From contig JACOXZ010000012.1 in assembly GCA_016182105.1 (NCBI GenBank), positions 1-33,885 on the forward strand: 33,885 nucleotides of DNA, in the 5' to 3' direction. The notes under the pieces were generated by a model. The model was not told the DNA's origin, did not search any database, and was given only the letters and a program-made list of their open reading frames with translations. How positions within the stretch are numbered: the first letter of the stretch is position 1; each line of letters opens with the position of its first letter. Positions 8,105 through 10,472 of the stretch are shown one piece after another. This DNA comes from Candidatus Liptonbacteria bacterium (GTDB lineage Bacteria; Patescibacteriota; Minisyncoccia; UBA6257; 2-01-FULL-56-20). The position numbers and the translations under genes are program-made.

Positions 8105-8247
8105 GAAGCCGTCAGCTATTCTTGAGGAAGCTCTCGGACCCAGCCGTAGCTCGGTGTCGCCAAAGGCGACTACGGCTGGGGAGAGGCAGCGGGCGCTTGC
8201 CGCTGGAGCAAGCGAACCGCGGTTCCGAAAGGATGGCTGGCGGCTTC
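8105..8247 (+). ncRNA. candidate structured RNA element, copy A (orientation inferred)
   Basis: 12-bp closing helix GAAGCCGTCAGC/GCTGGCGGCTTC; CTCTC-GGA-P2a-GCTCGGT-P2b-GAGAG; P3 with CGCTGGA loop; CCGAAAGG mini-hairpin; helices covary with copy B. Confidence 0.65.
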
Positions 8248-8554
8248 ATCTTAACTCGACGCCTTCCTTCTTGAGCCGCTCAATTTTTTTACTGCTCCCC
8301 CCTCGGCTATAGCCGCCTGGTCGGCCGTCGGAGCGAATCACCCGGTGGCAAGGAACCTCGCGGTCGCGATTCGCCTTCATAATATTCCCCACAGCCCGAT
8401 AAGCACGCGGACTGCCGGCAGCTACCGCCACTTCCTTATAACTCATTACGCTTCCTTTCGGGATTCGGCGGACAACTTCTAAAACTTTTTCCTTAAACCT
8501 CATTTTTGATATCGAATTTCTTACTTTAATTTTTGAGCTTTTGGGCGAATTCAA
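8246..8554 (-). CDS. MGMT-family (O6-alkylguanine-DNA alkyltransferase C-domain) protein
   Basis: IPKGSVMSYKEVAVAAGSPRAYRAVGNIMKANRDREVPCHRVIRSDG; PCHRV active-site Cys present; start may be internal Met (~8503). Confidence 0.85.
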   Translation of the reverse strand: MNSPKSSKIKVRNSISKMRFKEKVLEVVRRIPKGSVMSYKEVAVAAGSPRAYRAVGNIMKANRDREVPCHRVIRSDGRPGGYSRGGSSKKIERLKKEGVELR

Positions 8555-8558
8555 ATTT

Positions 8559-9644
8559 TTACGGCTGCAAAATATCTTCCGTGCGGCCGTTTATGGAAAT
8601 CACGACATCACGGACGCTAGGGAATTGCTTCACGGTTTCTCTGATTTGCGAGCGAATGGCGGTGAGGCGGCAGGAACCGCCCACTTGAAATTCAAGCGCT
8701 TCGTTAAAATCAACCCTCAAAATCCCGTCTCCAATTGTTAAGCTCTGGATTATCACGCCTTTGGGTATGTTAGTAAGAAATCCGTCGCTTACTTCCGAGG
8801 CGGTCGGACCCCTTAGCAACTCCTCAAGAGCGACTCGCGCCACTGCTTGAGTTTGCTTAATAGTTCTTGTGACCGGATAAACCTTTGCGCAATCCGACGC
8901 ATTCGGATCATATATTTTATTGCTAAAGAATGCATTTATTTTCATTGTGTCGGCTCTCGCGAATTTAACCGGCACCACAACCTTATTAATTTCCGAGCCG
9001 TCTTTGGCCGAATACTCAAAAACCTCAAGCGTCCCGCCTTGGCTCTTGGGCAATGGGTATGTCCTTATCACCTCAAATTGGCCGAAAAGACCGGCATCAG
9101 GACTTGCGGCCATCGCGTGCCCTTCGAAAAGAAGGCCTGCGTCCCCGTCGTAGAGCCGGTAGGCAAAAGTACTTTCAAATACTCGTGCTTCACCTTTTAT
9201 TGTGAGCGGCGAACTGATTTCTTCGTTAGGAGCGGGCGAAAAGACAATAATATTCGGAACTTTTGTTATTTTTACTTCGGCGGCTAAGAATGAATCTTTA
9301 GAGATCAGCTTGCCTTTTGCGGAAATCGTAAATCCCCTCTTCAAGCTAGAAAAAGCGACTACCCCACCAGACTCGTCGAAGAATTTTGTCTGCGGAAGAA
9401 CCGTGAGGCTCACTGTCCCCTCCTCGCCAATTTGAAGGGTGATGACTTTTACGCTCGAAGCTAAATCAAAAATAACTCCCTGAATTGAATCTTTGGTCGT
9501 GAGCGGCTCTTCTGGGGCAGATCCTGTTCCTGGAGTTATCGCGGTTTCACTTGGATTAAAGACAAAGTTCTTTAGGAGCAGGAAAGAGGCCCCGAGCACA
9601 ACAATAATCACAATCGTGATCAGGGCGTATTCTTTGTTGGACAT
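8559..9644 (-). CDS. Gmad2 / GerMN domain membrane-anchored protein
   Basis: N-terminal TM; VFSPAPNEEISSPLTIKGEARVFE (Gmad2-like) and ALEELLRGPTASEVSDGFLTNIPKG...VDFNEAL (GerMN-like). Confidence 0.8.
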   Translation of the reverse strand: MSNKEYALITIVIIVVLGASFLLLKNFVFNPSETAITPGTGSAPEEPLTTKDSIQGVIFDLASSVKVITLQIGEEGTVSLTVLPQTKFFDESGGVVAFSSLKRGFTISAKGKLISKDSFLAAEVKITKVPNIIVFSPAPNEEISSPLTIKGEARVFESTFAYRLYDGDAGLLFEGHAMAASPDAGLFGQFEVIRTYPLPKSQGGTLEVFEYSAKDGSEINKVVVPVKFARADTMKINAFFSNKIYDPNASDCAKVYPVTRTIKQTQAVARVALEELLRGPTASEVSDGFLTNIPKGVIIQSLTIGDGILRVDFNEALEFQVGGSCRLTAIRSQIRETVKQFPSVRDVVISINGRTEDILQP

Positions 9645-9650
9645 AGGTTA

Positions 9651-9656
9651 AGTATA
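9651..9656 (-). promoter_or_regulatory. extended -10 (TGTTATACT) 6 nt upstream of ATG; leaderless start predicted
   Basis: minus strand GTGTTATACTTAACCTATG. Confidence 0.5.
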
Positions 9657-9673
9657 ACACCAAAAGCCTCTCA

Positions 9674-9835
9674 TGCCCCCGCCCCTCTTATCTCGAGGCA
9701 GCTCTCGGAGGCGCGTTGGCTTGGTCCGCTCGTTACCATACCCTTAGCCGAGCGGCAACGCGCCGAGAGCGCAGGCGGGCATCTGCCGCTGGAGCAGATG
9801 AACCGCCGGTGCCGAGAGGTAGGAGGGGCGTGGCA
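9674..9835 (+). ncRNA. candidate structured RNA element, copy B (orientation inferred)
   Basis: Same architecture as 8105-8247: CTCTCGGA, P2a GGCGCGTTG/CAACGCGCC, bulge GCTTGGT, P2b CCGCTCG/CGAGCGG, P3 CATCTGC/GCAGATG with CGCTGGA loop, CCGAGAGG. Confidence 0.65.
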
Positions 9836-9842
9836 CACTTTT

Positions 9843-10472
9843 TTATTTTATTTTGCTTAAAGGACAATTCTTGTGGTCATGCGGCCGCGCTGGACAATAC
9901 TTACGTCCATAATCAATCATCCGGTACGTAAACTCAAACCATTCTTTCTTGGGTAAAATAGTCATCAAGTCTTTTTCAATTTTTTCCGGATCAGTGTGAC
10001 TTGTAAGCCCCATAAGTTTCGCAAGGCGCCGGACGTGCGTATCCACCGCAATTCCCTCAATCACTCCGTAAGCATTTCCCAAAACGACGTTCGCGGTTTT
10101 TCGCGCGACTCCCGGGATGGTCAAGATTTCTTTCATAGTCCGGGGGATTTTCCCGCCGAATTTCTCTTTCACTAGTTTCGCCGCGGCAAGAATATTTTTC
10201 GCTTTATTTCGGTAAAAACCGGTAGAACGAATATCTTGTTCGAACTCTTTTTGGCTCGCATGCACGTAGTCATCTAATGACGAGTACTTTTTGAAAAGCC
10301 GCTCCGTCACCTCATTCACCTTTTTATCGGTGCACTGCGCGGAGAGTACAACGGCAACCAGAAGTTCCCAATTATTCGAGAACTTAAGAGAAATTTTTGC
10401 GTGCGGCAAGAGCTTTTTCAAGATACGTACGACCACGCCTGCACGCCGTTTGAGTTTAATGTTACCGGGCAT
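9843..10472 (-). CDS. nth: endonuclease III-like DNA glycosylase
   Basis: SAQCTDKKVNEVTERLF, LTIPGVARKTANVVLGNAYG, AVDTHVRRLAKLMGL; C-terminal Fe-S motif incomplete. Confidence 0.9.
   Translation of the reverse strand: MPGNIKLKRRAGVVVRILKKLLPHAKISLKFSNNWELLVAVVLSAQCTDKKVNEVTERLFKKYSSLDDYVHASQKEFEQDIRSTGFYRNKAKNILAAAKLVKEKFGGKIPRTMKEILTIPGVARKTANVVLGNAYGVIEGIAVDTHVRRLAKLMGLTSHTDPEKIEKDLMTILPKKEWFEFTYRMIDYGRKYCPARPHDHKNCPLSKIK

Follow-up and report, generated by a model that had tools for sequence, protein, structure and literature searches.

Two intergenic structured elements of a Liptonbacteria contig belong to a multi-copy, patchily distributed and mobile-looking repeat family

The structured intergenic elements designated copies A and B, located on the 33,885 nt Candidatus Liptonbacteria contig JACOXZ010000012.1 (here termed the window), are two members of a multi-copy, patchy and mobile-looking family, of which a sequence-only reading of the same DNA had seen only part. 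We slightly favour the interpretation (probability of approximately 0.5) that they are non-autonomous, mobile, structured interspersed repeats recognized by their shape in trans, as opposed to cis-regulatory RNAs. This is suggested by dispersed and patchy copies, near-identical copies at other sites, a nested twin of copy B and filled and empty sites, as well as by the lack of a recurrent neighbour, the strong fold of one strand and an oriented position at stop codons. Against this interpretation, no mobilizing enzyme was found among Y1 transposases, reverse transcriptases (RT) and TnpB, there was no clear target-site duplication, the terminal arms are copy-specific, unlike those of a classical transposon, and several copies are orthologous between species. 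Host-useful 3′-end structures and trans-acting RNAs are both live rivals.

Two copies in the window

Both copies were found where previously placed, at 8105-8247 and 9674-9835, and both display the shared architecture described from the letters, namely P1, P2a, a 7 nt bulge, P2b, P3 with loop CGCTGGA, and a CTCTC/GAGAG helix with GGA (Table 1). Their folding energies compared with dinucleotide shuffles gave z = -8.4 for copy A and z = -6.2 for copy B. A covariance model, R1, was built from eight copies of the same genome (alignment A4, with a hand-written structure) that did not include A and B, and the scores of these two are therefore out-of-sample. In the window the model identified exactly copies A (99.5 bits) and B (105.0 bits), both at E ~1e-25, with no other match up to E = 5. 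Energies and scores place both copies far from chance. The genes next to both copies are ordinary genes.

Table 1. Features of copies A and B in the window, with sites of type 3 and type 4 repeats at other loci
Feature	Position	Strand	Remarks
Copy A	8105..8247	+	from one P1 end to the other; R1 match 8116-8240, 99.5 bits
Copy A P1 5′ arm	8105..8129	+	tandem G.A included
Copy A CTCTC/GAGAG flanking helix	8131-8135 / 8181-8185	+	
Copy A unpaired GGA	8136..8138	+	conserved; precedes P2a
Copy A P2	8139..8180	+	P2a 8139-8148/8171-8180
Copy A P2 bulge	8149-8155	+	GCTCGGT
Copy A P2b	8156-8161/8165-8170	+	
Copy A P3	8189..8220	+	loop CGCTGGA 8201-8207
Copy A P1 3′ arm	8223..8247	+	2 nt overlap with stop codon of gene 8246-8554 (-)
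Gene abutting copy A by its stop codon	8246..8554	-	6-O-methylguanine DNA methyltransferase DNA-binding domain protein
Copy B	9674..9835	+	R1 match 9687-9827, 105.0 bits
Copy B P1 5′ arm	9674..9700	+	
Copy B P2	9710..9764	+	P2a 9710-9718/9756-9764
Copy B P2 bulge	9719-9725	+	GCTTGGT
Copy B P2b	9726-9732/9749-9755	+	
Copy B P3	9774..9807	+	loop CGCTGGA 9787-9793
Copy B P1 3′ arm	9810..9835	+	7 nt from stop codon of gene 9843-10472 (-)
Gene abutting copy B by its stop codon	9843..10472	-	HhH-GPD base excision repair protein (endonuclease III-like)
Type 3 sites	L186 near 5885, L187 near 1437, L191 near 1418		
Type 3 sites	L089 near 3415, L131 near 189, L123 near 1994		
Type 4 sites	L130 near 4203, L194 near 1355, L224		

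Distribution of the family

BLAST searches with copy A or copy B against their own genome (588,305 bases in 28 contigs, 94 % complete) returned further copies at once. R1 matched 16 places up to E = 1, 12 of which scored above 90 bits. Of the other four, three were divergent or of reduced length, and the last (E = 0.04) was instead a type 2 repeat, described below. The genome thus holds approximately 15 dispersed copies of an element of some 130-190 bases, although tiny Patescibacteria genomes are expected to purge repeats (0.6 Mb in this case), and copies differ between sister species. The element was carried by 35 of 61 near relatives, at least 117 of 244 genomes of the order and at least 12 of 380 genomes sampled across the phylum, with 1-16 copies per carrying genome; the large searches scored the best candidates of each genome only, so carrier and copy counts are lower bounds. 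Named carrier records comprised Lipton-, Wolfe-, Colwell-, Harrison-, Jorgensen- and Niyogibacteria, and four carrier contigs from metagenome-assembled genomes were labelled Omnitrophota, possibly through misbinning.

The family was previously uncatalogued. In accordance with the earlier statement that no Rfam family was recognizable, none in Rfam 15 matched at the gathering score or up to E = 10, the phage and plasmid collections contained no match, and the open-licence full texts searched yielded no account of a comparable element from Patescibacteria. Pattern matches in a single viral contig (L100) and in Rhodobacteraceae, Arthrobacter, Lautropia and Telmatospirillum records were discarded as they lacked model support, as was a Clostridiales match with a marginal model score (17.6 bits, E 0.07). 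Many copies were located a few hundred bases or less from contig ends (L143, L113, L114, L127, L128 and L139), as expected if near-identical repeats break assemblies, and the element is a likely reason for assembly breaks at gene ends.

Conserved fold, covariation and hairpin exchange

The consensus fold is a three-way junction in which a long P1 encloses P2 and P3. It includes the short CTCTC/GAGAG helix with GGA unpaired, a P2a of 10 bp in nearly all copies, a one-sided 7 nt bulge (GCTTGGT) followed by a variable P2b hairpin, and P3 with the loop CGCTGGA. P1 is one continuous helix with a tandem G.A interruption (TTGAGGAA/TTCCGAAA in copy A), the positions of which are Watson–Crick paired in many copies. 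The CC-GNRA-GG mini-hairpin proposed from the two window copies was not conserved; the strand concerned forms the P1 3′ arm and is paired with the 5′ strand across copies.

Amongst the eight own-genome copies of A4, 88 % of cells were paired and double changes were present at 28 of 40 pairs, with a covariation score of 0.61 compared with 0.23 in shuffles. In 46 matches fitted to R1 (A5), 92.4 % of cells were paired and 542 cells carried double changes (149 in shuffles), whilst in 75 R1-fitted copies from other genomes (A7) 92.5 % were paired and 957 carried double changes (283 in shuffles, at most 210 in slid controls). Because fitting biases the counts in A5 and A7, we also took 24 copies found in other genomes, aligned them by MAFFT without the model (A8) and derived the structure de novo with RNAalifold. 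This yielded the same structure, with 44 pairs, 41 of which displayed kept double changes. Homologues keep the pairing; covariation exceeds the controls in the fitted alignments, and double changes are equally evident when the alignment is made independently of the structure. Nearly all copies found were structurally intact, a property for which the model itself selects. Covariation this strong in natural sequences is useful for fold determination.

Changes in the helices were not confined to single pairs. Identical P3 hairpins were shared by 11 of 314 same-genome pairs of copies compared with 23 of 7436 between-genome pairs, an excess from which whole hairpins appear to be exchanged as modules between copies, and helix sequences differ partly because of this exchange. 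The view that the pattern is the signature of selection on RNA structure was borne out with regard to covariation, which is massive, but covariation alone is no proof of selection on an RNA product because whole hairpins swap between copies. A folded single DNA strand would also leave a similar signature. Extreme covariation can accompany dispersed, turning-over repeats, which calls for caution in naming functional RNAs by covariation alone.

The folded strand

The strand that folds is the plus strand. Mismatches were asymmetric, with GT/TG at 188 versus AC/CA at 73 and GA/AG at 243 versus TC/CT at 18 (counts that are partly model-biased), and when 135 copies were folded on either strand, the plus strand was the more stable in 123 under RNA parameters and in 126 under DNA ones. 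The same strand had previously been favoured on its unpaired/GNRA pattern; mismatch asymmetry and folding energy uphold the choice. A model-free count of interruptions in the outer arms of P1 gave 23 G-T and 15 A-C, a ratio that is not a clear RNA-only signature, and the folded form may be either RNA or single-stranded DNA. G-U made up 188 of the 4840 standard pairs, or 3.9 % of paired cells, and 5.6 % of pairs in tRNA stems, a control that does not settle the matter, since mismatches are left unbracketed by the finder.

The similar frequencies of G-T and A-C in the outer arms, the small G-U share and the exchange of whole hairpins are all compatible with DNA-level palindromes kept perfect by template switching at replication and by gene conversion, in which case the fold would be functionless and covariation a by-product. 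Palindrome correction alone would not give unpaired motifs at fixed places in a three-way junction, however, and both the near-constant 10 bp P2a and the strong G.A strand asymmetry count against it. We consider this account improbable.

Position at gene ends

Position was assessed in 89 de-duplicated copies that had no type 2 shell and had genes on both sides in simple ORF calls. In co-directional contexts, 46 copies were antisense and 13 sense (p = 2e-5). The 3′ end of the element was located -5 to 15 nt from the stop codon of an antisense gene in 32 of 62 cases, compared with 2 of 29 for the mirror case, in which the 5′ end is equally near the stop codon of a sense gene; both window copies match the oriented gene-end position. 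In four genera (L021, L115, L142 and L143) the 23S rRNA gene had an antisense copy immediately at its 3′ end, with helices that differed completely yet remained paired, and copies also occurred near tRNA 3′ ends. No recurrent protein or gene was identified amongst the neighbours of the copies. In two genera, an ORF recognized by eye as resembling a LAGLIDADG homing endonuclease lies within or adjacent to the 23S rRNA gene (L115 4535-5003 (-), and a relative near L021).

Two cis-acting roles were rejected: an intrinsic terminator in the plus orientation, as a T-rich right flank was present in just 2 of 95 copies, and a riboswitch or leader, given the orientation and the lack of recurrent neighbours. 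A third role, which we consider unlikely whilst treating it as a live rival, is that of a host-useful 3′-end element, whereby the complement of the folded strand would form a terminator, protecting or processing structure in the mRNA after the stop codon, and likewise at 23S rRNA and tRNAs, with gene conversion spreading the copies. The close, oriented place behind stop codons and at 23S rRNA (four genera) and tRNA 3′ ends would be explained in this way, as would the persistence of orthologous copies between species. An A-rich left flank, which is a U-tract in the mRNA sense, was present in 12 of 95 copies versus 1-2 of 95 in controls, although most copies lack it. In addition, mismatch asymmetry and folding energy place the structure on the opposite strand, half of the genomes of the order do without the element, the corresponding gene in sister species has an empty site or a different repeat, and nesting inside type 2 repeats would go unexplained.

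Dispersal and turnover

Three near-identical Colwellbacteria copies were found at different sites, their identity ending approximately at the end of P1, with a short 3′ flank in common to two of them. Copy B stands alone, whilst a twin with 96 % identity on another contig of the genome (C7; G000:C7:974-1133), which shares both P1 and core, is nested inside a type 2 repeat. Across five congeneric species, three syntenic sites displayed different structured repeats or the opposite orientation between flanks whose identity reached 94-99 % for the closest pair. Filled and empty sites between congeneric species were identified at two loci, and could reflect either insertion or deletion. In one (L123 versus G140), the element is present at a gene end and the stop codon differs from that of the empty allele; near 4053-4180 of L123, the reading frame of the antisense gene was seen to run into the element, unlike in the empty G140. 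In the other (L122 versus G144), the element directly follows the stop codon on its 3′ side in the filled allele. No target-site duplication was evident at the two filled/empty pairs or the near-identical copies, where divergence could mask a few bases. Congeneric species also shared orthologous copies, in which double changes or a swapped P3 helix stood out against otherwise near-identical surroundings. As several copies are orthologous in this manner, turnover is not extreme.

Locus-specific arms and the nested form had raised the idea of a core inserted into pre-existing host hairpins. This was rejected as the sole explanation, given that the near-identical copies have common arms and that copy B and its twin have the same arms in different surroundings.

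Under the mobile-element interpretation, the moving unit would be P1 together with the P2/P3 core. The folded plus strand, as RNA or single-stranded DNA, would be recognized by its shape and by unpaired GGA, GCTTGGT and CGCTGGA, and moved by an enzyme supplied in trans. It would then insert, or survive, just behind gene 3′ ends in antisense, which is the position and orientation observed. Pairing is kept thereafter whilst the sequence turns over by the double changes and hairpin swaps seen amongst copies. The element allows the idea of mobility guided by shape instead of sequence to be tested directly.

The other live rival, which we regard as rather improbable, is that the family consists of multi-copy small RNA genes whose plus strands are transcribed into structured, trans-acting RNAs. 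Conservation of structure alone with conserved unpaired motifs, the strand bias and same-place persistence with double changes all speak in its favour. However, the left flanks contained no conserved promoter-like sequence when their composition was inspected, copy number varies to an extreme degree with half of the order lacking the element, copies are present or absent at syntenic sites, and antisense positions at gene ends would make most of the copies antisense RNAs.

Candidate mobilizing enzymes

Neither Y1 transposases (9 of 35 carriers versus 5 of 26 non-carriers) nor RTs (18 of 35 versus 14 of 26) were associated with the element, and neither was found in its own genome, which is 94 % complete. 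TnpB was absent from all 61 relatives searched, including the own genome, and no linked ORF or autonomous relative was seen amongst the neighbours of the copies. Two RT genes resembling those of DGRs were each followed immediately by a copy on the same strand (L168 4376-5509 (-) and L169 4202-5242 (-)). These genes, in genomes G058 and G049, had Avd-like and variable-protein neighbours, and in G058 the RT reading frame continues through the element. Despite the two RT-adjacent copies, an RT association was rejected as RT presence is uncorrelated with the element.

Comparison with known elements

HEARO and the omega-RNAs of IscB/TnpB are multi-copy, standalone, structured RNA-like elements tied to mobile DNA; the present element differs in having no Rfam match, no linked ORF and no TnpB in 61 relatives. 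REP/BIME sequences are short palindromic extragenic repeats that form strand-specific hairpins and are mobilized in trans by a Y1 enzyme (RAYT). In contrast, the element is larger and branched, with no Y1 in its own genome and no association with Y1 across relatives.

In integrons, attC sites are found directly behind the stop codon of the cassette gene. Where an antisense gene lies 3′ of a copy, this kind of geometry, with the folded strand antisense to the gene and directly behind it, is seen in approximately half of the cases (32 of 62), and in this the element resembles attC (PMC2727003). Little sequence conservation, a folded bottom strand and strand choice by unpaired bases are further likenesses (PMC2727003). 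Unlike attC, however, it has no R′/R″ core boxes (RYYYAAC/GTTRRRY) at the arm ends and no constant sequence in the outer arms or flanks, forms no cassette arrays, and is exchanged whilst the neighbouring gene remains.

ERIC, NEMIS/Correia, RUP and BOX are MITE-like small interspersed repeats of bacteria (PMC2229807, PMC3049150). These are likewise below approximately 200 bp, without an ORF, intergenic and dispersed, have long base-paired transcripts, often lie behind genes and lack a linked enzyme; BOX repeats are, in addition, modular and able to provide stop codons (PMC2229807, PMC3049150). As a repeat the element behaves like them, being similarly short, non-coding, dispersed and present in many copies. 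Its ends are always complementary (P1, with an outer extension of median 11 bp), but the arm sequence varies, including at the arm ends, unlike in recognized terminal inverted repeats. It further differs in its branched core, conserved loops, extreme covariation and orientation to the stop codon. Since it has neither conserved terminal sequences nor a visible target duplication, we did not file it as a MITE-like member.

Companion repeats

Type 2 repeats consist of an outer helix, a covarying hairpin with loop CCAGCG, then CGCTGG, CTCGCTC, an insert and ACCATGCCCGCTCGG. The insert slot holds either a plain hairpin or a nested unit of the present family (type 1). The nested form occurs in the own genome at L018, L003, L008 and L011, and type 2 repeats were found alone at L035 near 1525, L194, L106 near 5854 and L175 near 2011. 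By base complementarity, the CCAGCG loop could form a pseudoknot with the downstream CGCTGG, and a kissing contact with CGCTGG in the P3 loop of type 1 is also conceivable.

A type 3 repeat of ~100 nt, with a variable outer helix around CGAAGGCTAAGACTTGGGCG ... CGGAGACAGCCTGAG, was also observed at gene ends. We tentatively raise the possibility, doubtful as it is, that this family and types 2 and 3 form an undescribed guild of small mobile elements in Patescibacteria, whose folded single strands would be recognized by shape, largely independently of sequence, and would transpose, swap hairpins, nest and replace each other at the gene ends of sister species. A type 4 repeat of ~90 nt (GCCGAGCCAGGCCCCCCGCCC ... 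GGGTGGCGAGGAGCGTGCGAGCG) was present in many copies in genus g101.
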